A DNA stretch of 64,000 nucleotides, from positions 186,001-250,000 of the forward strand of contig NZ_BSTF01000009.1 in NCBI RefSeq assembly GCF_030269365.1. Direction: 5' to 3'. The DNA is from Lentzea sp. NBRC 102530 (GTDB lineage Bacteria; Actinomycetota; Actinomycetes; Mycobacteriales; Pseudonocardiaceae). Shown here in pieces: positions 6,733 to 52,647 of the stretch. The position numbers and the translations under genes are program-made. How positions within the stretch are numbered: position 1 is the first letter of the stretch; each line of letters begins with the position of its first letter. The notes beneath the pieces are model-generated. The model did no database searches. It saw only the letters and a list, made by a program, of their open reading frames with translations, and was not told the DNA's origin.

Positions 6733-8436
6733 GTGGGACTTCGCAGCGAGCAGTGGTACGCCGGTGACGACCGCAACGCCTACATCCACCGCGCCTGGAT
6801 GCGCCGCGGCACCCCCGACGACGCGTTCCGAAGGCCGCAGATCGCCATCGCCAACAGCGCCTCCGACCTCACGCCGTGCAACGCGCATCTGAACGAGGTC
6901 GCGCAGTCCGTCTCCAACGGCGTCTACGAGGCGGGTGGTAACCCGCTCAACCTGCCCGTCGTGTCGCTGGGCGAGACCAACGTCCGCCCCACCGCGATGC
7001 TGTGGCGCAACATGGCCGCGATGGCCGCCGAGGAGATGCTGCGCGCCAACCCCGTGGACGGAGTGGTGCTGCTCGGCGGGTGCGACAAGACGATCCCGGC
7101 GCTGCTGATGGCCGCCGCGTCCGTCGACGTTCCCGCCGTGGTGCTGCCGGGCGGGCCGATGCTGACCGGCACGTTCCGCGGCACTCCCCTGGGCTGCGGC
7201 ACGGACGTGTGGCGGCTGTCGGAGGAGGTGCGGGCGGGCACGTTGTCGCAGGAGGCCTTCAACCGCTCCGAGTCGGCGATGATCCGCAGCCGCGGCCACT
7301 GCAACACGATGGGCACGGCGTCGACGATGGCGTTGGTGGCGGAAGCCCTCGGCACGGTGGTCCCCGGAGTGGCGGGCACGCCGGCGCCGGACAGCCGGCT
7401 CCTCGAAGCCTCGCACGGCACCGGGAAGCTCGTCGTGGAACTGGTCGAGAAGGACCGCAGGCCCAGCACGTTCCTCACGAAGGCGAGCTTCCACAACGCG
7501 ATCGTGGCGCTGGCGGCGATCGGCGGGTCGACCAACGCCGTGGTGCACCTGCTCGCCATCGCCGGACGCCTCGGCGTCGACCTGACGCTGGACGACTTCG
7601 ACCGCGTCGGCTCCGGTGTGCCGCTCCTGGTGGACCTCCAGCCCGCCGGCCGGTTCCTGATGGAGGACTTCCACCGCGCGGGCGGACTCCTGGCGGTGCT
7701 GCGGGAGGTGCGCGACCTGCTCGACCCCGAGGGCGTCACGGTGACCGGACGGCCGCTCGTCGAGCACCTCGACGACGCGCCGATCTGGGACCCCGAGGTG
7801 ATCCGCACCAGGACCGAGCCGATCATCACCGAGGGCGGGATCGCGGTGCTGCGCGGCAACCTCGCGCCGTCCGGGGCGTTGATCAAACCGGCGGCCGCGT
7901 CCGCGCACCTGTTGCAGCACCGCGGCAGGGCCGTGGTGTTCGACAGCATCGAGGACTTCCACGCCCGCGTGGACGATCCCGACCTCGACGTGGACGCGGA
8001 CTCCGTGCTGGTGCTGCGCGGGTGCGGGCCGCGCGGCTATCCGGGCATGCCGGAGGTGTCGAACATGCCGTTGCCGAAGAAGCTGCTGGAGCAGGGCGTG
8101 CGCGACATGGTCCGCATCTGCGACGGGCGCATGAGCGGCACCGCGTACGGCACGGTGGTCCTGCACGTGGCACCGGAAGCGGCGGCGGGCGGGCCACTCG
8201 GGCTCGTCCGGACCGGCGACGTCATCGTGCTGGACGTGGCGAACCGGCGGATCGACGTGGAGGCGCCGGACTTCCTCCAGCGCTCCCCCAGCACGGCGAT
8301 GGCCGAGGCGTTCGCGGCACCGAAGCGCGGCTGGGAACGGCTCTACGTCGACCACGTGCTGGGCGCGGACACCGGAGCCGACCTGGACTTCCTGCTCGGC
8401 TCCAGCGGCAGCGAGGTAACGCGCGAATCGCACTGA
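6733..8436 (+). CDS. IlvD/Edd-family dehydratase, sugar-acid type
   Basis: A 567-residue Fe-S dehydratase. The family cysteines are visible in SDLTPCNAH, GGCDKTIPA and RGHCNTMGTASTM. Conserved IGGSTNAVVHLLAIAGR and the C-terminal CDGRMSGT segment are also present. The overall pattern looks closer to arabonate/xylonate-type dehydratases than to branched-chain IlvD, so dehydration of an aldonic acid is the likelier reaction. Start GTG at 6733 follows AGGAGG with a 5-base spacer. It is placed just after the MerR gene and ends before a hairpin repeat. Confidence 0.88.
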   Translation: MGLRSEQWYAGDDRNAYIHRAWMRRGTPDDAFRRPQIAIANSASDLTPCNAHLNEVAQSVSNGVYEAGGNPLNLPVVSLGETNVRPTAMLWRNMAAMAAEEMLRANPVDGVVLLGGCDKTIPALLMAAASVDVPAVVLPGGPMLTGTFRGTPLGCGTDVWRLSEEVRAGTLSQEAFNRSESAMIRSRGHCNTMGTASTMALVAEALGTVVPGVAGTPAPDSRLLEASHGTGKLVVELVEKDRRPSTFLTKASFHNAIVALAAIGGSTNAVVHLLAIAGRLGVDLTLDDFDRVGSGVPLLVDLQPAGRFLMEDFHRAGGLLAVLREVRDLLDPEGVTVTGRPLVEHLDDAPIWDPEVIRTRTEPIITEGGIAVLRGNLAPSGALIKPAAASAHLLQHRGRAVVFDSIEDFHARVDDPDLDVDADSVLVLRGCGPRGYPGMPEVSNMPLPKKLLEQGVRDMVRICDGRMSGTAYGTVVLHVAPEAAAGGPLGLVRTGDVIVLDVANRRIDVEAPDFLQRSPSTAMAEAFAAPKRGWERLYVDHVLGADTGADLDFLLGSSGSEVTRESH

Positions 8437-42516: not shown

Positions 42517-44196
42517 TCAGGTGAAGACGCGGAGTTTGCCGCCGCGCTTGCGCTGTCGCTTCGCCCAGGCCGGGGACGCGAGCACCAGGCGGCGGATGTG
42601 CCGGGCGATGATCAGGCAGACGGCAAGGTCGATCTTGTGCGGGGACTCCCGCGACTCCTTCGAAATGCCTACGCCGTATCGGTTTGGTGACCGGCGCGCG
42701 TTGAGAACGTGCCGCCGCAGCCTCAGATCTCCGTCATGGGTCAGGGTGCGGTCGCGTATGTCGATCAACGCGCGGCCGGTGGCTTGTGTGGTGTCCTGGA
42801 TTCGGCCGCGCATGTCGTAGGCGACGGCGTGCCGGTTGCGTCCGGTGCTGGCCTCGACCAGGAGATCGTCTCCGAACTCCAGCGCCCAGCCGTCCACGTA
42901 GGACTCGAACTCGCGGACGTCGGCGAAGAAGCCGACGACCTCGAAGCGCTCGAACGCCGAGCGCACCGCGAGGTCTGCCGCGTCGCGGTCGACTTCCCAG
43001 CCCTGTTCGGCCGGAAGGTCCTCGGGGCGTTCCTGGACGTGCAGGACACCGGCGTGTCCGTCCGACATGCGCACGGCGACAAGGCCTGTGGCGTCGTCGC
43101 TCTTGGAGCCGTCGAACATCATCACGATGGCGTCGCCGTCGTCGAGGGGCGGGACGTTCTCGTCGTGGCAGCCGTCCCACTCGGGCACGGTCGCCCAGGC
43201 GGTAGCGGCGGTCCCGGCCAGGTTGAAGAAGTACCGTTTGGACTCTTCGGTGTCCTTCGCCAGGTCCCAGAACTCGTTCTCGACGATGCCGGGCAGATCC
43301 ATCCAGGCGGCGGCCGGGCCGTAGACCTCGGTCAGGGCGGCGACCATCGCGTCCAGGTCGGTGAGGTCGACCTCGGCCGGGGCGTGCCGGTGGTCCCACA
43401 GCAGCCGGGACGCGCGCGTGCGTCCTTCGCGAATCGCGTTGGCCTGCTTGTGGACCGTCTCCAGCGTGGAGTCCTGGCCGCCCTGGTACATCGTGGACGT
43501 GAGCAGCCCCCACGGCTCCGCCGCCTTGCGCTTGCGAAGGTTGCGGTCCACGGTCTTGAACATCCTGCGCAGCTCTGGCGTGATGTAGAGGTGCGGCTCG
43601 TCATAGATGGCAAGGGATTCCTTGCCGCCGTCCTTGGCCGAGCTGCTCGCCGTCGAGGGGATGATCTCGCCGCCCTCGGGCAGCAAGATCCGGGTCAGCC
43701 CGGCCGCGCCGCGCGGAAGATCCTCACCGAGCGGCCCCTCCGCCAGGTTGAAGTGGATGACGTCGAACGTGTTGCCCGTCTGCGACTCTTCCGTTGCCAG
43801 GCAACGAATGTAGGGGTAGGTGATCGGGCGTCCCATCGGTTCGCCCGGAGCGTAGGTGTAGACGAAGTCACGCCAGACGAACGTCTCCCCGCCTTGCGCC
43901 CACCCTGCGAACCGGGCGGGGCCGCGCGCCTCGAACAAGCCGACGAAACCGGCCAGCTCGCTTTTCGCGCGGCCCTTCGCGCGCACCAGGGCGGCACGGG
44001 AGTAGAGGCGGCGTCCCTGCCGGTTCAGCGCGTAGGCGTCGGTGATGAACCCCGCGAACTCGTCGTCCAGCTCGACCGGGTCACCCTGGACGTCACCAGG
44101 ACCGTGTACCGCCCAGTGTTCGATCCACGCGGAGGCCAGCCACCCGAGCGAGCGTGTCCGGTCGTGGTCGGGGGCGCGGACAAGCTCACGGGGCAC
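42517..44196 (-). CDS. terL: Terminase large subunit
   Basis: A 559-residue packaging motor. The N-terminal ATPase has the deviant Walker A RAKGRAKSE and Walker B LAIYDEPH. The C-terminal nuclease begins IVMMFDGSKSDDATG with its first metal-binding Asp and has further acidic residues in FFADVREFE and KIDLAVCL. Overlaps the small subunit gene by 11 bases. Confidence 0.95.
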   Translation of the reverse strand: MPRELVRAPDHDRTRSLGWLASAWIEHWAVHGPGDVQGDPVELDDEFAGFITDAYALNRQGRRLYSRAALVRAKGRAKSELAGFVGLFEARGPARFAGWAQGGETFVWRDFVYTYAPGEPMGRPITYPYIRCLATEESQTGNTFDVIHFNLAEGPLGEDLPRGAAGLTRILLPEGGEIIPSTASSSAKDGGKESLAIYDEPHLYITPELRRMFKTVDRNLRKRKAAEPWGLLTSTMYQGGQDSTLETVHKQANAIREGRTRASRLLWDHRHAPAEVDLTDLDAMVAALTEVYGPAAAWMDLPGIVENEFWDLAKDTEESKRYFFNLAGTAATAWATVPEWDGCHDENVPPLDDGDAIVMMFDGSKSDDATGLVAVRMSDGHAGVLHVQERPEDLPAEQGWEVDRDAADLAVRSAFERFEVVGFFADVREFESYVDGWALEFGDDLLVEASTGRNRHAVAYDMRGRIQDTTQATGRALIDIRDRTLTHDGDLRLRRHVLNARRSPNRYGVGISKESRESPHKIDLAVCLIIARHIRRLVLASPAWAKRQRKRGGKLRVFT

Positions 44197-44656: not shown

Positions 44657-45301
44657 TCAGGCGATGCGCTTCGGGTAGGGCTGGTGCATCCGGCGCAGCG
44701 CCCGCCGCGTGGTCTTGTTCAGCGGCAGGATGTACCGGTGTTTCACCGGAAGGTTGCGCATCCGGTACGCGTCCGGGTCGAGTGTGCGGCGCACGTAGTC
44801 CAGGCTCGTCTCGTCCGCACGCTTGCGGGAGCGGGCGAAGTTGGACAGCGTGCGCCCGTGGGTCTTCACGCCCTGCACGAGGTAGTAGGCGTCCGAGCTG
44901 CCACGCGCGCCGGTGTAGAGCCAGTTCGCGGCCTGGTAGACGCCGCCGTGGTGACCTTGCGCGGTGTCGGCGTAGGACACGATCAGGCGTAGGCCGGGGC
45001 ACGCGGCGCGGAGTTGGCGCAGGCTCGCGGCGATCATCTGCGTGACCGGGGCGGCGTGCTCGGTGAGCGCGATCCGCACCAGCTCGACGCACTCGGTTTG
45101 CCCGAGCGCGAACGGGCTCGACATGTGGTTGTTCGCGCCCCGGCCGAAGACGATCGCGCCCACGAAGACGCCGTTCTCCCAGACACCGAAACAGGCGATC
45201 TTGCCGTTGGGCAGGGTGCCCGAGTAGTGCCAGCGCTGCGCCGCGTACTTCGCGGCGGCACGCGTGCACGGGGCCACCAGGAGGTCAGTCGTGCTGATCA
45301 C
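44657..45301 (-). CDS. Mom-like DNA adenine modification protein
   Basis: A 214-residue protein with strong resemblance to phage Mom proteins: AAKYAAQRWHYSG, FGVWENGVFVGAIVFGRGAN, ELVRIALTEH, RLIVSYADTAQGHHGGVYQAANWLYTG and a C-terminal KHRYILPLNKTTRRAL. Mom of phage Mu adds a carbamoylmethyl group to adenine N6 and blocks host restriction. The fold is acyltransferase-like. The start is uncertain: GTG at 45301 abuts its ribosome site, while an ACG at 45292 has ideal spacing. It overlaps the 49-residue gene upstream. Confidence 0.82.
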   Translation of the reverse strand: MISTTDLLVAPCTRAAAKYAAQRWHYSGTLPNGKIACFGVWENGVFVGAIVFGRGANNHMSSPFALGQTECVELVRIALTEHAAPVTQMIAASLRQLRAACPGLRLIVSYADTAQGHHGGVYQAANWLYTGARGSSDAYYLVQGVKTHGRTLSNFARSRKRADETSLDYVRRTLDPDAYRMRNLPVKHRYILPLNKTTRRALRRMHQPYPKRIA

Positions 45302-46371: not shown

Positions 46372-46965
46372 TTAATCCTGCGCTTGCCTGATCGCCTTCA
46401 CGTGCCTTGCGGCGGTCGAGTACACGACTCCGACGCGTTCGGCGATCTTGGCTACGTTCGTCTCGCCAGCATCGACCAGTTCGCGAATCTGTCGAGCGAC
46501 CTCGGCGCGCGGCTTGGACTCGGTGCGTCCAGGTGGACGTCCGCCTGGACGATGAGCCTGCGCGCGTTCCTCGCGCTCGGCCTTGAAGTACTCGACAACG
46601 CGGCGGGGCCAGAACAGCCGACCACAGATCTCCACGCTTCCCGCAACCTTGTAGTCGGTCCAGGTCTTCGTCTCGATCCCGGCGAACGCGGCGCACTCGT
46701 TACGGTCGAACAGGTCGCCCGGATTACCTGGCGAACCGAGCGGGACACTGGGAGGAAGGTCGGGGATCGGCCGCCGGTCGGCGTAGGCCTGGGCCTGTGC
46801 GAAGTCCCAGAGGTCCGGCTGTCCCTTGCCCCGCCCGCCGCTGGTGATCTTGTCGGGGTGACCGGTCTGTGCCCAGGGCCGGACGCGCCGCGCCTTGTCG
46901 GGACTGAGCCCGTGCAGTTTCGCGATGCCCGCCGTATCGACGGCGTCACGTCCGACGTGGATCAC
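46372..46965 (-). CDS. Helix-turn-helix phage protein
   Basis: A 197-residue DNA-binding protein. The C-terminus (about 150-195) is a resolvase/Hin-like HTH: EVARQIRELVDAGETNVAKIAERVGVVYSTAARHVKAI. An N-terminal segment (AGIAKLHGLSPDKARRVRPW) and the middle (RNECAAFAGIETKTWTDY) resemble further HTH units. As the last early gene before the early/late boundary, it could be a late-gene activator. That is an inference. Confidence 0.65.
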   Translation of the reverse strand: MIHVGRDAVDTAGIAKLHGLSPDKARRVRPWAQTGHPDKITSGGRGKGQPDLWDFAQAQAYADRRPIPDLPPSVPLGSPGNPGDLFDRNECAAFAGIETKTWTDYKVAGSVEICGRLFWPRRVVEYFKAEREERAQAHRPGGRPPGRTESKPRAEVARQIRELVDAGETNVAKIAERVGVVYSTAARHVKAIRQAQD

Positions 46966-47005
46966 CCTTGCTCCCTTCCGCTGATCGGGTCTTCAGTGTG
47001 CCAAG

Positions 47006-47032
47006 GCCCCGGCCCCTTGGAGGGGCCGGGGC
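47006..47032. terminator. Hairpin terminator after the DUF2786 gene
   Basis: GCCCCGGCCCCT (47006-47017) and AGGGGCCGGGGC (47021-47032) form a perfect 12-bp stem with a 3-base loop, 12 bases after the DUF2786 stop. Confidence 0.85.
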
Positions 47033-47044
47033 TGTGCCGGGTTA

Positions 47045-47833
47045 CTACTTCGTGGCGGTCTTGCCGCTCTTCAGCTTGCTCTGTCCCGTGTCGGCGGTGC
47101 GACCGGCGCGGAAGCCGTCAGCCCGGCCGTCAAGGCTGACCTTGTCCGGCGCCACCGTCTTGAGGTTCGATCCGTACAACTTCTCGAACTTCGCCGCGAC
47201 GCGCTCGGCTTCACTGGCCAGAACCAGCGCGCCGGAGGTCTCGGCGACTTCCTCGGCCAGGTCGGTCCGGAACTCCGTGATCTTGTAGGCGACCCCCGCG
47301 CCGAACGCGGCGAGGTAGCTCCGGAAGTACACGCGGCGAGCCCGGTTGAGTTCCTGCTCGGTCTCGTAGTCCGCCTTGACCTCCTGACGGTAGGCCGTTG
47401 CCTCCACGCGGCCCCGCAACTCGGCCTGGTCGAGGATCGACGGCAAGAGCACCTCCAGTGCAGACAGGGCGGATGCGGTGCCGACGATGAGGACCCAACG
47501 CGTCTTGCTGTTCATGATGTTGCCCTCGAACGCGACGCTGCATCCGTAGGCCTCTGCGACTGCGGCGGCGCATTCGGCGCGGCCCTTGCCGTGGTAGCCC
47601 TGGCCGGAGATCTCGAAGCGGAGCAGCTTGATCACGTCGGGCCGCTTGTCGTTCTCGGCCTTGAAGATCGCCGCGTCAAGCGCGTGGCGCGTCATCAGCT
47701 CTGCGGCCTTCGCGGCGAACGCCTGCGCCTCCTCCTTGGTGACGCCGGAGTCCTTAGCCTGGTTCAGCAGCGCCTGAACCTTCGCGATCATCTTGGCCTT
47801 GTCGTCGCGGGCGTTGCTGGTCTTCGTGGCCAT
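47045..47833 (-). CDS. DUF2786 family protein
   Basis: A 262-residue protein. The N-terminal 45 residues (KAKMIAKVQALLNQAKDSGVTKEEAQAFAAKAAELM) match DUF2786, a short helical domain found in phage and plasmid proteins of unknown role. The rest is mainly helical with a Lys-rich C-terminus. It has its own strong promoter and a hairpin leader (see 47849-47934) and is followed by a terminator, so it is a monocistronic early gene. Confidence 0.82.
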   Translation of the reverse strand: MATKTSNARDDKAKMIAKVQALLNQAKDSGVTKEEAQAFAAKAAELMTRHALDAAIFKAENDKRPDVIKLLRFEISGQGYHGKGRAECAAAVAEAYGCSVAFEGNIMNSKTRWVLIVGTASALSALEVLLPSILDQAELRGRVEATAYRQEVKADYETEQELNRARRVYFRSYLAAFGAGVAYKITEFRTDLAEEVAETSGALVLASEAERVAAKFEKLYGSNLKTVAPDKVSLDGRADGFRAGRTADTGQSKLKSGKTATK

Positions 47834-47848
47834 GATCAGTTCCTGTTC

Positions 47849-47934
47849 TTCGCGGTGGATTCTTGTTGCGGGAGAGGGGTTCCAGTTCCCCTCCCGACAA
47901 GAACAACTATACCGCGAACACTGCGCAGTCGCAA
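47849..47934 (-). promoter_or_regulatory. Promoter plus CUGGAA-loop leader hairpin A
   Basis: On the minus strand: -35 TTGCGA (47934-47929), 17-bp spacer, -10 TATAGT (47911-47906). The hairpin (47901-47862) follows, with CTTGT/ACAAG and CGGGAGG... stems and loop AACTGGAACC. A CCACCGCGAA box comes next (47859-47849 region), then AGGAAC before the DUF2786 ATG. Transcription would start at about the first base of the hairpin. The spacer holds the 10-bp palindrome ACTGCGCAGT. Confidence 0.7.
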
Positions 47935-48013
47935 CCACGAGGTGAGGCGGGTCACCACGCAAACGGGGCCGGACGAATCGCCCGGCCCCGCACGCGCAGA
48001 TCTCTGGTTGCCG

Positions 48014-48481
48014 TCAGGATGCGACGGCGTAGGTAGCTCCGGCCCGGATCTGGCGCAGGACTTCCGCTTTCAGGTCCTGGGACGACAGATCGAAGGGCAC
48101 GAAGAACATGCCGATTTCCATTTCATACCAACGAAACTTGACTTGAATGCGCGACAGAGCGTGCTTGGCGTGCTCCAGCGGCCCAGGGCAGGCGTGCCGC
48201 ACCTCGCGCTCAAGGTCGTCAATCCCGTCCGGCACGTGCTCGGTCAGAGCGTCGGAGACGGGCCAGTCTTTGCAGTAGGGACAGACCTCCTGTGCGCACT
48301 GCTCTTCCGAGAGCACCCAGACGACCTCCAGCCCGTCCCTGTCACTCGGCACCACCTCGCGCACATAGTCGGAGTACTCCCCGCCGATCGCGGTGTACTC
48401 GGAGGGTTCGCGGTAGAAGTAGATGCCATAGGCAAGACATCCTTGCGGGGCTTGATCTTCCACGTCGGTCAGGTCGGTCAT
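48014..48481 (-). CDS. Hypothetical early phage protein, leader C
   Basis: A 155-residue acidic protein starting MTDLTDVEDQ. It has a single CPYC pair. The sequence FRWYEMEIGMFFVPFDLSSQDLKAEVLRQI is strongly protein-like. No family recognised. ATG at 48481 follows TAAGGA and hairpin leader C. Confidence 0.65.
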   Translation of the reverse strand: MTDLTDVEDQAPQGCLAYGIYFYREPSEYTAIGGEYSDYVREVVPSDRDGLEVVWVLSEEQCAQEVCPYCKDWPVSDALTEHVPDGIDDLEREVRHACPGPLEHAKHALSRIQVKFRWYEMEIGMFFVPFDLSSQDLKAEVLRQIRAGATYAVAS

Positions 48482-48502
48482 TCGAGTTCGTTTCCTTACT
48501 GG

Positions 48503-48549
48503 TCGCGGTGAGACCGTCGCCGGACGGGGTTCCAGGTCCGTCCGGCGAC
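48503..48549 (-). promoter_or_regulatory. CUGGAA-loop leader hairpin C
   Basis: A perfect 12-bp stem GTCGCCGGACGG (48549-48538) / CCGTCCGGCGAC (48527-48516) with loop ACCTGGAACC on the minus strand, followed by TCACCGCGA (48511-48503) and TAAGGA. It lies between two early genes with no clear promoter of its own. Confidence 0.7.
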
Positions 48550-48560
48550 AGCGGATCTCG

Positions 48561-48836
48561 TTAGTAGCAAGCGGCGATGCGTGCGGCGCAGGTCGAGCGC
48601 AGGACCGCGAGTACCTCGACACGGTTCGCGGCGGTGGTCTCCCAGAGGCGCCCCGGCTTGACCGTGATCACGTCAGTTCCGACGTAGAGATGAACCTCGG
48701 CGTGAGGGTTCTCGGTCAGCACGACCGTGGCGACGCGTTGCGCGTAGCGCCATCCATCCGACTCGATGCGGGCGCGGCCCTCATCGGCGATGCCCTCTCG
48801 CGTCTCGACATACCAGGAGTGCCACGTTTCCTTCAA
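48561..48836 (-). CDS. Hypothetical early phage protein
   Basis: A 91-residue protein starting at TTG (48836), 6 bases from GGAG. The middle reads RVATVVLTENPHAEVHLYVGTDVITVKPG, a beta-rich pattern, and it ends CAARIAACY. Unrecognised. It lies just before leader C. Confidence 0.6.
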   Translation of the reverse strand: MKETWHSWYVETREGIADEGRARIESDGWRYAQRVATVVLTENPHAEVHLYVGTDVITVKPGRLWETTAANRVEVLAVLRSTCAARIAACY

Positions 48837-48909
48837 CGGATTCTCCGATCGCAGTGCACGCGCCAGACGCTGAGGGCGTCGGGCGGCGCGAAGTGTGCTG
48901 GGGGATAAG

Positions 48910-48936
48910 GGGTGTGCCCTTTAGGTGGGCACACCC
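48910..48936. terminator. Hairpin terminator in the early operon
   Basis: GGGTGTGCCC (48910-48919) and GGGCACACCC (48927-48936) form a perfect 10-bp stem with a 7-base loop, directly after the 48950-49408 gene stop. Confidence 0.82.
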
Positions 48937-48949
48937 TCGCGTCACTCGG

Positions 48950-49408
48950 CTAACGCGGGTCCACGGCGTCGTATGCGTTGATCGCGTTCGTCAAGGCGGT
49001 CACGCAGTCGCGCCAGGCCATGTAGTCGGTGACTTCCCAGGCGATCGGGCCGAACTGAATCCGCAGGTGCGCCGGAGAGTGAGAGGTCTTGGGAATCCGC
49101 GTGCAGGTCCGAGTAGGCACGCCCGGAAGATCCACGAGAACGTGTGCGCGGTGCAGGCCGGGGTTCCCGCCTGCGTGCACGTCCTCGTAGTAGCCCGGCA
49201 GGCCGGACATCTCGTCCTCTGCGACCGCCCAGACGTAGTGAAGCTCGTTCAGTGCCTCAAGCTCGTGCACTCGAACAGTGACGTCCCCCAGGCGCACGCT
49301 CACGCCCATGTTCGGGTTGCCGACGTTGTACAGGTCGACCCGGCACAGCACTTCCCCAGAGGTCCGAACCCTGATTTCGGACACGTTGCTACCAGTCGGG
49401 TTGCTCAC
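48950..49408 (-). CDS. Hypothetical early phage protein, leader B
   Basis: A 152-residue protein, beta-rich (SEIRVRTSGEVLCRVDLYNVGN, GVSVRLGDVTVRVHELEAL), ending with a helix. Not recognised. Starts at GTG 49408 after AAGGAG. It has its own promoter with leader B and a terminator, so it is a separate early unit. Confidence 0.62.
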   Translation of the reverse strand: MSNPTGSNVSEIRVRTSGEVLCRVDLYNVGNPNMGVSVRLGDVTVRVHELEALNELHYVWAVAEDEMSGLPGYYEDVHAGGNPGLHRAHVLVDLPGVPTRTCTRIPKTSHSPAHLRIQFGPIAWEVTDYMAWRDCVTALTNAINAYDAVDPR

Positions 49409-49431
49409 CCTGACAGCTCCTTAGCTCGTAC

Positions 49432-49512
49432 TTCGCGGTGGATGTCAGGACCGGGGTTCCAGGTCCGTTCCCAACGAGAAAAACTCTACCGCGAACAGTG
49501 CGCAGTGGTCAA
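49432..49512 (-). promoter_or_regulatory. Promoter plus CUGGAA-loop leader hairpin B
   Basis: Minus strand: -35 TTGACC (49512-49507), 18-bp spacer, -10 TAGAGT (49488-49483). The hairpin GGAACGG-ACCTGGAACC-CCGGTCC follows (49471-49448), then CCACCGCGAA (to 49432) and TAAGGAG. Spacer sequence CTGCGCACTGTTCGCGG nearly equals that of leader A. Confidence 0.7.
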
Positions 49513-49550
49513 CACCGGATGTCCCGCTACACTCGTGGCTGCTCCTTACC

Positions 49551-49624
49551 TTCGCGGTGGAGCAACTGGCGGGGCTCGAAGGTTCCAGCCTTCTGAGCTT
49601 GCTCGGAAGGTCTTCGGCCCCGCC
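49551..49624 (-). promoter_or_regulatory. CUGGAA-loop leader hairpin D, without a gene
   Basis: An outer stem GGCGGGGC/GCCCCGCC (49624-49617 with 49575-49568) and an inner stem GAAGG-CTGGAA-CCTTC. CTCCACCGCGAAG and TAAGGAG follow, then a GTG that is immediately followed by TAG. Leader B's promoter begins right after it. It appears to be an orphan leader, or a start-stop regulatory element. Confidence 0.6.
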
Positions 49625-49633
49625 GCCCACCAT

Positions 49634-50626
49634 CTACGCTGCTCGCGCCGGTCCGCGCCTGCGCTGCCACGAGGCGAGCACATCGGGCCGTGCGAACAGC
49701 GGCCGGGACTTCGAACCGTGGTTGATCCACTGGTCCTCATGCCGCCAGCGCCGCAACGTTCCATTCGGGACGGTCAGCCACGCCGACAACGATGCGAAGT
49801 CCGACAGCGGCGTTCCGAGAGCGTCGCCGAGCATGTCCCAGAACGCGCGGGGCCAGCTGGTCCCGCACGAGCGGCAAGTGATCGACTCACCGCCCAGACG
49901 GGCACGTAGGCTCGCGCCGCACGGGCGGACAACGCCGTTGTCCCGGATCTTGATCGGGCAGGCCCCGACGGGGACGGATCGTTCGTGCAGGCCGAGCACG
50001 CCGCGCAACTGGTGGCGCAGCTCGCCGGCCTCTTGGTTGAGGTCCGCCACCCAGTACTGCCGCGTGATCCAGTCCTGCCACTGCAACAGAAAGTGCGCCT
50101 CACCGGACACGGTCCGCTCGGCGATGCCGAGCGTGACCGAGATGGCCTTACGCGCCTCGGTGAGCTTGTCCAGGATGCCGACCGCCCACACCTGGTTCGC
50201 GGTGTAGTCGAGCCACCCGGCCAGCAACCCGCCCTCGCGGCGCACGCCCTCGGGGATCTCGCGCGGGACCAGGCCGACGTCCTCGCGGACGTTGTCGGCC
50301 CACGAGCCGAGAACGTCGAGCACGGGCAGCGGATCGCCCTCGTCCTCGGCGTGGCTGCGCGGATCGGTCATCGCAAGCACGCTGTCCCGCGCCGGAGAAC
50401 GAGACCCGTACCCAGGGCTGCCCCGTGTGCCGCCATCGGAGACACCAGGCAGCAGCGCGTCGTCCAGCAGGGCGTACAGCTCCACGATTTCCAGCAGCGT
50501 GGAACGCAGCTCGGCGGCGCACGGGTCGCACGTGAGGTAGCCCGACTGGGCGGGCCACGGGTCGCCCCCAGGTGCCCGGCACCCGAGCACGCACAGGGTG
50601 TCGGTGTTGGTGATGGTCGTGCTCAT
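49634..50626 (-). CDS. Zn-ribbon phage protein
   Basis: A 330-residue protein with two likely zinc sites: CVLGC...CDPC near residues 12-35, and CPIKI...CGAS...CRSCG at about 240-265. It ends with an HTH-like stretch (LSAWLTVPNGTLRRWRHEDQWI) that could bind DNA. ATG at 50626 follows AAGGAGATC and overlaps the upstream gene stop. Probably a DNA-replication or transcription accessory factor. Confidence 0.65.
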   Translation of the reverse strand: MSTTITNTDTLCVLGCRAPGGDPWPAQSGYLTCDPCAAELRSTLLEIVELYALLDDALLPGVSDGGTRGSPGYGSRSPARDSVLAMTDPRSHAEDEGDPLPVLDVLGSWADNVREDVGLVPREIPEGVRREGGLLAGWLDYTANQVWAVGILDKLTEARKAISVTLGIAERTVSGEAHFLLQWQDWITRQYWVADLNQEAGELRHQLRGVLGLHERSVPVGACPIKIRDNGVVRPCGASLRARLGGESITCRSCGTSWPRAFWDMLGDALGTPLSDFASLSAWLTVPNGTLRRWRHEDQWINHGSKSRPLFARPDVLASWQRRRGPARAA

Positions 50627-51204
50627 GCGGGGATCTCCTTGTGTGGCAGCGTGTCTGCTCGCCGCTCGGCCTGGCACTGCTCGGCTCGTTCGGTGCGCGA
50701 GGCGTGTACGCCCTTGTGCAGGTCGACGGTGTCCGGGCGGCCCTTGCGCCGTGCTCCGGTGCGTCGGCAGGGCGTCCCGGCCGCCGCGAGGCACTCCGGA
50801 ACCGGGCACGCGACGGACAGGGCGGAGATGTGCGCGTCCGGGCGCTTCCAGCCCATCGCGGCGCGGATCTTCGACATGTGGGCTTCTGCGGCGTTCGCGG
50901 CCTCGGCCGGGTCGACCTTCGCCGCGGACGCGGCGAGCACCTGCGCATCGAGCGTTTTCCGTCGTGCGGCGCGGATGTGGACGATGAGGTCATGGGCGAG
51001 CGGCGGGTGGTTGCTGTGCTGGGTGTGGATCACCAGCGCGGCGAGGCACTCGCCGAGCGAGTAGCCGGTGAGCGCCGCGCCCCAGGCCGCGACGGCTTCA
51101 CGACCGACGCTGATGCGGTGCCCGGCTGAGAGGATCATCCCGAGCAGGGTCGTGACCTCCGCGCGGCTCATGCGCACGTTGGTGACGGGAACGACCTCGG
51201 TCAT
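50623..51204 (-). CDS. Early phage protein with C-terminal zinc-finger-like motif
   Basis: A 193-residue protein. The first 120 residues are helical (SRAEVTTLLGMILSAGHRIS) and could be a helicase-loader-like segment. The C-terminus has CPVPECLAAAGTPCRRTGAR...DLHKGVHASR, a small CxxxC-C-H zinc-finger-like motif common in actinophage early proteins. ATG at 51204 overlaps the replication gene stop as ATGA, and its own stop overlaps the next ATG. Confidence 0.62.
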   Translation of the reverse strand: MTEVVPVTNVRMSRAEVTTLLGMILSAGHRISVGREAVAAWGAALTGYSLGECLAALVIHTQHSNHPPLAHDLIVHIRAARRKTLDAQVLAASAAKVDPAEAANAAEAHMSKIRAAMGWKRPDAHISALSVACPVPECLAAAGTPCRRTGARRKGRPDTVDLHKGVHASRTERAEQCQAERRADTLPHKEIPA

Positions 51205-52415
51205 GCCGCCGCCCCGGACAGAAGCGCGCCCATCCCGGACGCTCCGGTGCCAGCTGCAGCGCGCAGCAGGCGGCCCAGCTCGGTGTCGTCGCCGTCCTCG
51301 GTCGCGTACTGGGCAGCCAGCGCGAACGCATTGGCGACGCGCTCGTCCGGACCACGTGGCGGCCTCGAGTTCGCGGCGGCGTCGATCTGGGGTGCGCGCA
51401 TCGCTTCGCCGACCAGCTCGGCCAGCAGCCCGACGCCGAGGCTCTTCCCAGCCCACAGGCGCAAGCCCGCCTCGACGTCCTGGGCCTCGATGCCCTCGGC
51501 CAGCAACGCGGCGACCTCGGTCACAAGCCGTGTGGCGACCTTCGCGGGTTGTCCGGGCAGGACCTCGGCGACGAGCTGGGCGGCGTCCTCGCGCGTAGGC
51601 GCGCTCTCGCGTGTGCGCGCGACGCCGCCCTGAACTGAGGAAGCACTCAACAGGACGGGAACAACGCAACCCTTCCCCCTACCCCCTTCCCCCTGAGCCT
51701 GCGCGGAAGGGTCGCCGGAGGGGTTCCCGGCAGGGTTCGCCGTGACGGCCCCGACGAGCTCGCGCGGGTCGAGCTCGGGGACGGCGGGCCGGGCCTCGGA
51801 CTGCTTGACCGCCTCGGCGGCGGGCGCGGCGGCAGGGCGCGCCGGCCTCGTGGCCCGCCGCGCCACCGGAGCCGTCGAACCGGCCTTCGTGGCGGCCGGG
51901 GTCTTCGTGGACTTCTCGCGGCGGTGCTGCTCCATCGCGGCCTTGACGACCGGAGGAAGCTCCCGCGCGCCGGACAGCAGCGCCTCGGCCGCCATCGCCG
52001 GGGCCGGGCCGGTCACCTCGACCGGCAGGCGACGCAGCTCGGCCGCGAGCGCGCCGCGCACGACCGCAGACGACGCGGCGAACGCGGCCCGCAGGGCAGC
52101 CGCGAGGATCTGCGGCTGCTTGTAGATGCCGTCACGGCGGATCAGCGACCGGACAAGGACCTCTTCGGCGTCGTGGTCGACCACGACGAACCGGCGCGCG
52201 TCCAGCTCGGCCAGCGCCGCCGTGACGGCCTCCACGGAACCGGCGTTCATCTTCGACGTCCAGCGCCGCAGGCGCAGGGGCAGCAGACCCGCGTAGGTCA
52301 GCTCCCGTTGCATCGTCAGGAAGAAGTAGAGCAGCTTCGCGGAGTCGGACAGGGCAAGGAAATCGGTGTCGTCCTCCCACATCGAGCAGTAGTGAACGGC
52401 GTGGTCACGCGCCAC
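51201..52415 (-). CDS. Replication initiator-like protein
   Basis: A 404-residue protein. The N-terminal 110 residues (WEDDTDFLALSDSAKLLYFF, YAGLLPLRLRRW, LAELDARRFVVVDHDAEEVLVRSLIRRDG) match the winged-helix N-terminus of actinophage replication initiators. A low-complexity Ala/Pro/Lys linker follows, then a helical C-terminal domain. GTG at 52415 is 9 bases from AGGAGG; the TTG at 52424 abuts it and is unlikely. Confidence 0.72.
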   Translation of the reverse strand: MARDHAVHYCSMWEDDTDFLALSDSAKLLYFFLTMQRELTYAGLLPLRLRRWTSKMNAGSVEAVTAALAELDARRFVVVDHDAEEVLVRSLIRRDGIYKQPQILAAALRAAFAASSAVVRGALAAELRRLPVEVTGPAPAMAAEALLSGARELPPVVKAAMEQHRREKSTKTPAATKAGSTAPVARRATRPARPAAAPAAEAVKQSEARPAVPELDPRELVGAVTANPAGNPSGDPSAQAQGEGGRGKGCVVPVLLSASSVQGGVARTRESAPTREDAAQLVAEVLPGQPAKVATRLVTEVAALLAEGIEAQDVEAGLRLWAGKSLGVGLLAELVGEAMRAPQIDAAANSRPPRGPDERVANAFALAAQYATEDGDDTELGRLLRAAAGTGASGMGALLSGAAA

Positions 52416-52647
52416 GGGAAACAACCTCCTGTAGGGGGTTCACGGGCAGGCACAGACGCGCGCGGATACGCGCGGCCGTGTAGGTGGACAGGCCGAGTCG
52501 GATCGCGATCTCGGCATCGGACAGGCTGCGACGGTGCAGCCAGGTGACCGCAAGTTCGCGGGCACGCGTGCTCAGCTCGTCGGCGAGCAGGTCACCGTTC
52601 AGACAGCGGCGGGCGTTCTCCGCGTCGGCGTGCAGCTGCGGCGTCAC
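52405..52647 (-). CDS. Small HTH protein
   Basis: An 80-residue protein with a LuxR/sigma-like HTH: RRSLSDAEIAIRLGLSTYTAARIRARL. It overlaps the replication gene by 11 bases and the upstream gene by 4. A small phage regulator or replication accessory factor. Confidence 0.7.
   Translation of the reverse strand: MTPQLHADAENARRCLNGDLLADELSTRARELAVTWLHRRSLSDAEIAIRLGLSTYTAARIRARLCLPVNPLQEVVSRGA

Follow-up and report, generated by a model that had tools for sequence, protein, structure and literature searches.

The leader block of a Lentzea prophage

The DNA analysed here, hereafter the window, comprises 64,000 nucleotides (nt) of Lentzea sp. NBRC 102530 (contig NZ_BSTF01000009.1, positions 186,001 to 250,000). 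It contains four leaders, A to D, all on the minus strand, in which the motif CUGGAAC is followed, at a distance of 16-23 nt, by the box ACCGCGA, each at the place given in an initial annotation of this DNA. Since the leader block is flanked by a replication initiator gene (51201-52424) and a terminase gene (42517-44196), it lies within a prophage. Across 11 related prophages, this one included, the element is present in 46 copies in gene-sense orientation, with stems that vary in sequence and keep pairing and with a lineage-specific motif and box that are shared within a prophage; the early-region loci show no motif-box pair on the other strand. The elements and adjoining genes, in window coordinates and with lengths in amino acids (aa), are:

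47934-47849, minus strand: leader A
47906..47934, minus strand: promoter of A, TTGCGA-17-TATAGT
47866..47899, minus strand: hairpin of A, loop AACUGGAACC
47885..47850, minus strand: span CTGGAACC...ACCGCGA of A
47850..47856, minus strand: box ACCGCGA of A
49512-49432, minus strand: leader B
49483..49512, minus strand: promoter of B, TTGACC-18-TAGAGT
49443..49476, minus strand: hairpin of B, loop ACCUGGAACC, weak by itself
49462..49433, minus strand: span CTGGAACC...ACCGCGA of B
49433..49439, minus strand: box ACCGCGA of B
48516..48549, minus strand: hairpin of C, perfect 12-nt arms, loop ACCUGGAACC, promoter not seen
48535..48503, minus strand: span CTGGAACC...ACCGCGA of C
48503..48509, minus strand: box ACCGCGA of C
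49568..49624, minus strand: element D, an outer stem, nested hairpin and CUGGAAC bulge directly past the stop codon of the 49634 gene
49582..49588, minus strand: motif CUGGAAC of D
49588..49552, minus strand: span CTGGAACC...ACCGCGA of D
49552..49558, minus strand: box ACCGCGA of D
47045..47833, minus strand: gene under A, DUF2786 / phrog_421 protein, 262 aa
47006..47032, unstranded: terminator-like inverted repeat after gene A
48950..49408, minus strand: gene under B, 152 aa, no family match
48910..48936, unstranded: terminator-like inverted repeat after gene B
48014..48481, minus strand: gene under C, 155 aa, Cys-containing, no family match
47964..47990, unstranded: terminator-like inverted repeat after gene C
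49634..50380, minus strand: gene upstream of D (start assumed; open frame to 50809), the conserved anchor for locating D elsewhere

Genes A, B and C thus each end in a strong inverted repeat, and no gene lies directly downstream of D. The combined pattern CTGGAACC-N(4-30)-ACCGCGA has nine matches in the 9.5-Mb genome, four of them at these leaders, against two for a reversed control pattern. Its parts are frequent in the window on their own, with 53 occurrences of ACCGCGA (26 expected) and 39 of CTGGAA (17 expected).

Folding was compared with 300 dinucleotide shuffles per leader. The annotation had described a CUGGAA-loop hairpin in each leader, which holds for A (z -3.9) and C (z -6.1). Leader B alone folds no better than its shuffles (z -0.1), and its element is carried by its ortholog and the family. 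Leader D is structured (z -2.5), yet in a different way from the GAAGG/CCTTC hairpin initially drawn: its best fold has a long outer stem (arms 49568-49575 / 49617-49624) that encloses a nested hairpin and the bulged motif.

In a scan of 46900-50000, the only sigma-70-like sites are those of A and B (0.2 expected), with none for C or D, and the two TAKAGTT sites of the entire window are the -10 boxes TATAGT and TAGAGT of the same promoters (0.7 expected). They would place the +1 of A and B at the foot of the hairpin, as had been predicted. Around the hairpins, the promoter sequence TTCGCGGT and the box sequence ACCGCGAA form an inverted repeat of 11 nt in B (49432-49495) and of 8 nt in A (47849-47918), which is changed in copy A of the related genome G002. 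In addition, a palindrome ACTGCGCAGT or near-palindrome ACTGCGCACT lies between the -35 and -10 boxes of promoters A (47920-47929) and B (49497-49506) on the minus strand, possibly as an operator.

Copies and lineages in related prophages

The carriers are Lentzea, Actinokineospora and related prophages. Genome G002, of the same genus and identified as Lentzea aerocolonigenes NRRL B-16140 by equal element sequences, has the same block with all four elements at 80.6% identity over 8.2 kb. The Actinokineospora set, grouped by sequence, comprises the prophages of G138, G223 and G252, which carry the same genus label (g45), and that of locus L230; equal element sequences match G138 and G223 to records of Actinokineospora auranticolor and A. 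enzanensis. The others reside in G197, G323, G038 and, as two separate prophages, on contigs C38 and C22 of G143.

The initial claim that the stems differ and still pair was borne out by these homologues. Nine distinct simple hairpins of 12 pairs each, from the Lentzea, G197 and G143:C38 prophages, were aligned on the loop with ungapped arms flush to it; the count leaves out g2A and g2C (identical or same-arm) and all copies of the Actinokineospora set, G038, G323 and G143:C22. Pairing is retained in 96 of 108 cells (88.9%) and falls to 32-46% when the arms are slid by 1-3 positions, and both partners have changed in 10 of the 12 pairs. None of 5000 within-column shuffles, which ignore relatedness and use a register chosen from the folds, reached any of the three covariation measures. 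A misregistered alignment of D copies (A3) gave 78.6% paired cells, a value equalled or exceeded by 35 of 500 shuffles.

Two architectures recur. Simple copies have a hairpin loop of about 7 to 10 nt, and in the promoterless copies C and 143c the stem comprises at least 12 perfect pairs. D copies, present at the same place in ten other prophages, follow directly on the stop codon of the 49634 homologue and consist of an outer stem whose 5' side carries a nested hairpin (in 11/11) and whose 3' side carries the motif as a bulge. The distance from motif to box is 12-27 nt across the family, and the box is mostly of ACCG type and lies directly upstream of the ribosome site. Folding z values are below -2 in 25 of the 34 family copies folded. 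Of the 45 copies tested (all but a G323 copy cut at the contig start), 36 show an unpaired motif enclosed by five or more pairs. Among random positions, 187 of 3000 do so in simple windows and 137 of 3000 in D windows, 53 of the latter having a nested 5' hairpin as well. The nine copies that fail are B of the window, the G143:C22 copy at 7227, which has no enclosing hairpin in the segment used, and seven of the 11 D copies, where the best fold pairs part of the motif.

A TAKAGTT-like -10 box precedes 30 of the 46 copies (TACAGTT in one, TAGTATT in G323). The 16 copies without a visible promoter are the 11 of D type and five others, namely C in two genomes, one copy at a contig start, 143c and one in G143:C22. 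Because the hairpin starts near the predicted +1 in A, B and, judged by the -10 box, the other promoter copies, it might simply stabilise the mRNA by blocking decay from the 5' end with no specific partner. We consider such a role rather improbable, as it leaves the conserved motif and box and their joint change between lineages unexplained and does not fit the 16 promoterless copies. In the Actinokineospora set (L190, L191, L192 and L230), a shared stretch resembling GCGTCGTGGATCACC precedes the -10 box of each leader promoter by about 40 nt, and no clear -35 box is visible by eye, which suggests an activator site.

The annotation noted the CUGGAA loop as common to the four leaders. It holds for the Lentzea lineage; elsewhere the motif changes, together with the downstream box, giving seven lineage-specific combinations that are common to all or nearly all copies of a prophage:

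Lentzea (two prophages): CUGGAAC with ACCGCGA
G197: CUAGAAC with ACCGTCATC
G323: CUAGAAC with ACCGTGATC
Actinokineospora set (four prophages): AUGGAAC (UUGGAAC in D; AUGGGAC or ACGGAAC in the last copy, so that the motif is not fully uniform) with (A/C)CCGTTGC
G143:C38: UAGGAAA with CCTCTGCGC
G038: UAGGAAC with CCTCTACG
G143:C22: UUCAGAC with ACCGCGATC, once ACCGCGAAC

The copy list was compiled by searching each prophage with its own motif and box and is by itself no test for foreign ones. The D motifs of G038, G323 and G143:C22, however, were read before any motif had been chosen for these prophages, and D in G038 and G143:C22 was located through its protein neighbour, blind to the motif. 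Although D occupies an orthologous place and has an architecture of its own, its motif and box follow the other copies of the same prophage. This behaviour is hard to reconcile with copying of whole cassettes and points to a shared reader that selects both parts; the case for a co-evolving trans-acting factor is strong but indirect.

An antisense small RNA that base-pairs with the loop and the box could be that reader; short unpaired, lineage-specific sequences are natural targets for one. We regard this as very improbable: on the gene-sense strand of ten prophage loci (all but L230), exact complements of motif and box within 150 nt of each other occurred as a single pair, in G002 (L263) and outside the early region. 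The host regulator CsrA was another candidate, as CsrA/RsmA sites display GGA in 5'-leader hairpin loops and most of the lineage motifs contain GGA. This option is largely refuted, and CsrA is excluded as the general reader, by the absence of its gene (PF02599) from five of the eight carrier genomes searched, including that of the window, and by the motifs CUAGAAC and UUCAGAC, which lack GGA. CsrA genes (L304, L305 and L306) were found in three carriers of one genus, G138, G223 and G252.

The prophages were recovered by several routes. A search with the DUF2786 protein led to those in G197, G138, G223, G252, G143 and G038; it gave matches in 173 of 297 family genomes, mostly weak and probably to host genes, and leaders beyond the carriers were read at the six next-best loci. 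A first covariance model (R1) yielded G323. MAFFT had misaligned its stems, with three pairs and no double changes in RNAalifold, so that it is in effect a sequence profile. R1 matched 37 of 390 family genomes at E<=0.01; among the 30 loci read by eye, the true copies were those below about 1e-5 and one of G143, while G038 and G143:C22 were missed. Among 397 genomes of the order it matched three at E<=1e-4, all of the same family. A second model (R2), built on 12 pairs of six Lentzea/G197 hairpins, recovers the sequences it was built from and hits two of these on the reverse strand as well (E 0.011 and 0.066); at E<=0.005 it matched 11 of 386 family genomes, among them the carriers G000, G002, G197 and G323, and six other matches that were read (L273-L278) look like unrelated strong hairpins.

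In viral contigs, a loose pattern gave at least 120 stretches and a tight one 13 stretches with four carriers; a genome pattern scan gave six matches with three carriers. The viral-contig scan added L230 and recovered three known carriers, and a Streptomyces albireticuli locus (L243) folds with no visible box. Homologues of the 49634 gene were found at 25 loci in 21 genomes and led to the elements of G038 and the second G143 prophage. All ten best loci (179 bits or more) have D, whereas the 12 weaker loci read by eye (all others except L298, L299 and L301) lack it. At one of these, the look-alike L293 (G165), two hairpins on the reverse strand (~1982 and ~2527) with GGUGCAGGAACACC at the top and then (A/C)CCGAA(A/G)AGGAC sit behind a weak 49634 homologue; they stand outside the 46-copy count and are perhaps an eighth, more distant lineage.

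Three scans of viral contigs for related loci with genes A, B and C gave no match, and a search of 50,697 phage records with the window's leader block, the 49634 protein and two DUF2786-family proteins found no relative. An Actinokineospora block had a single 94-base phage match (Streptomyces phage Salutena) and no plasmid match. For the replication initiator, 257 phage records contain distant matches (under 60% identity over less than 80% of the length).

Further observations concern the neighbourhood. Behind D, an SD-like (Shine-Dalgarno-like) AAGGAG is followed by a GTG abutting TAG, a start-stop (49527-49547, minus strand). This GTGTAG recurs in six of the 11 prophages (window, G002 and the Actinokineospora set) and is not present in G197, G323, G143:C38, G038 or G143:C22. 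In G138 (L190:8744-10913), three leader-bearing genes (191, 184 and 216 aa) resemble paralogues by eye, which suggests duplication of a gene together with its leader. The gene-C protein is possibly distantly similar to the first leader gene product of the Actinokineospora prophages (17-22% identity); phmmer found no link between them. The window also encodes a protein of the DNA-modification family Mom (PF25680, E 5e-56; 44657-45301, minus strand), with homologues in five of six other prophages compared (G138, G223, G197, G143 and G252; not in the G002 stretch).

A putative translational operator

We tentatively favour translational control by a phage-made factor because of the distances in the 35 gene-bearing copies (a set without two D rows with a spurious open reading frame), in which the start codon follows the motif at 38-61 nt and the box at about 11-26 nt. 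On this reading, the leaders all represent a single bipartite cis-acting RNA element that belongs to a temperate-phage lineage, in which a hairpin or nested hairpin displays the 7-nt motif and a short box lies 3' of it at the ribosome site. A trans-acting factor would read both parts and set the translation of several genes jointly, the simplest version being a repressor in competition with the 30S subunit, like T4 gp43. Such a bipartite operator over a small regulon is a plausible reading of the sequences, if still a tentative one. It accords with the proposal of the annotation that the leaders represent an undescribed cis-acting RNA family of phage genes that may, for example, bind a phage protein, a view also favoured by the covarying stems, the related prophages and the lack of Rfam matches. 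Both early timing and any function of the leaders are what we infer. A leader peptide was considered and rejected: motif-to-box distances are multiples of three in the first copies and fall into all three classes overall, and the frame in copy B reaches a TGA after a few codons.

As its gene carries a leader in all 11 prophages, the DUF2786-family protein is a candidate for the factor, which would then be autoregulatory. Its homologues were recognised by phmmer, three times under a leader in G038; homology in G038 and G143:C22 rests on phmmer, the Pfam DUF2786 model having no match to two tested proteins. In an AlphaFold model (mean pLDDT 79, six sequences), the middle domain is paired by Foldseek with the KH3 domains of hnRNP K and PCBP2 at probabilities of up to 0.94-0.96 and E of about 0.2-0.3, and the model has no match at E<=0.001. 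A KH-like fold is thus a weak lead.

Several observations weigh against the translational operator or its candidate reader. In VIA-align, KH domains score Z 3.8-3.9, below and among unrelated folds, a weak match. Copy 252e of G252 has a box and SD sequence and lacks the motif hairpin. There is no clear compensation between the motif-box and the box-start distance (rho -0.28, p 0.10 for 35 copies; -0.12, p 0.63 for 19 representatives), with p 0.02 obtained only when one copy is dropped. In the kind of covariance search suggested by the annotation, R2 reaches no Actinokineospora copy at E up to 1 and G143:C38 copies only at E 0.13-0.56. Sense and antisense folds do not differ in stability (18 versus 16 copies, p 0.96), with G-U pairs at 40/521 versus 49/534, so that the strand test cannot tell RNA from DNA.

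This neutral outcome, along with the promoter-box inverted repeats of B (11 nt) and A (TTCGCGGT/ACCGCGAA, 8 nt), would suit operators at the DNA level built on imperfect inverted repeats, the kind proposed for the extended start-associated sequences (ESAS) of cluster K mycobacteriophages. We nevertheless judge DNA operators improbable, given stem arms that vary with pairing kept, the preservation of the motif in the different architecture of D, the sense orientation of the elements upstream of the SD sequence, and the promoter-box repeat itself, which differs in copy A of G002 and did not appear at other lineages' promoters.

The translational operator also fails to explain the gene-less D copies, which fit antitermination, mRNA processing or a sponge better; because of them, rival accounts keep weight. 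In processive antitermination, or at RNA polymerase-modifying sites, as with lambda nut or HK022 put, the nascent hairpin and box would carry polymerase past the terminator-like repeats that follow genes A, B and C. Lineage-specific recognition of a hairpin plus linear box, the position at the transcript start and a D element behind the upstream gene with no gene of its own all speak for it. The hairpin-then-box order with both parts lineage-specific, and copies at several genes adjoining the ribosome site, speak against it, as does the fact that no N-like gene turned up, in the course of work that included no systematic search for one. On balance, we think antitermination unlikely, if worth keeping in view. 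The fuller version of the operator, in which a phage RNA-binding protein, possibly DUF2786/KH-like, runs a post-transcriptional regulon through a code of seven motif-box versions, with D as a gene-less sponge or sensor, is possible but doubtful.

If the translational operator holds, one operator would govern several genes, with both recognised parts changed jointly several times among close relatives. It would provide a natural series for the evolution of RNA-binding specificity and a way into a phage control circuit of actinomycetes, and possibly an orthogonal set of RNA-protein pairs.

Relation to known systems

To our knowledge, the phage RNA operators nearest in design, such as that of gp43, serve a single gene. 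No description of the present element was found in the literature among the matches listed, and Rfam 15 gave no match at the gathering cut-off in the window or in five related loci; the best score, at leader C, was CRISPR-DR29 with 16.5 bits (cut-off 39). The CsrA/RsmA likeness is confined to GGA in leader hairpin loops and fails on the two counts given above, gene distribution and motifs without GGA.

Lambda nut shares the combination of a linear box and a hairpin in leader RNA, and boxB loops are lineage-specific. Excerpts on the mEpimmI group give each phage three nut sites, in which the boxB loop region is conserved (PMC11893012). In nut, however, boxA lies upstream of boxB, whereas here the hairpin precedes a box that is also lineage-specific, adjoins the SD sequence and is repeated per gene.

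According to the part of PMC3014915 available, T4 gp43 binds a hairpin of its own mRNA about 40 nt upstream together with sequence at the ribosome site, and the operator loop varies between related phages (UAAC; UAAA in RB49). The likeness to T4/RB69 gp43 is one of position only: in both, a hairpin precedes the start codon by some tens of nt and a second stretch of sequence lies close to the ribosome site. Gp43 is a single, autoregulatory gene, whereas three to six copies per prophage precede several genes here, and the lineage-specific box and the nested-hairpin variant set the present element further apart.

The nearest described phage elements are the start-associated sequences (SAS) and ESAS of cluster K. 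Judging by excerpts of PMC3203893, PMC11373665 and PMC7302621, these elements, also known from Microbacterium cluster EF, likewise combine a repeated start-associated element and an upstream inverted repeat with a promoter before several genes, and their consensus varies between subclusters. The SAS 13-mers GGGATAGGAGCCC (cluster K) and GGGAAAGGACCCC (cluster EF), which mark the ribosome site there, have no match in the window at up to two mismatches. As far as the excerpts go, SigA-like promoters lie within ESAS (PMC11373665), and the authors state that departures in the ESAS arms generally do not support RNA pairing (PMC3203893). ESAS arms thus hold the promoter and are conserved, 17 bp long and non-pairing, whereas in the prophages described here the hairpin lies 3' of the -10 box and its arms vary and covary.

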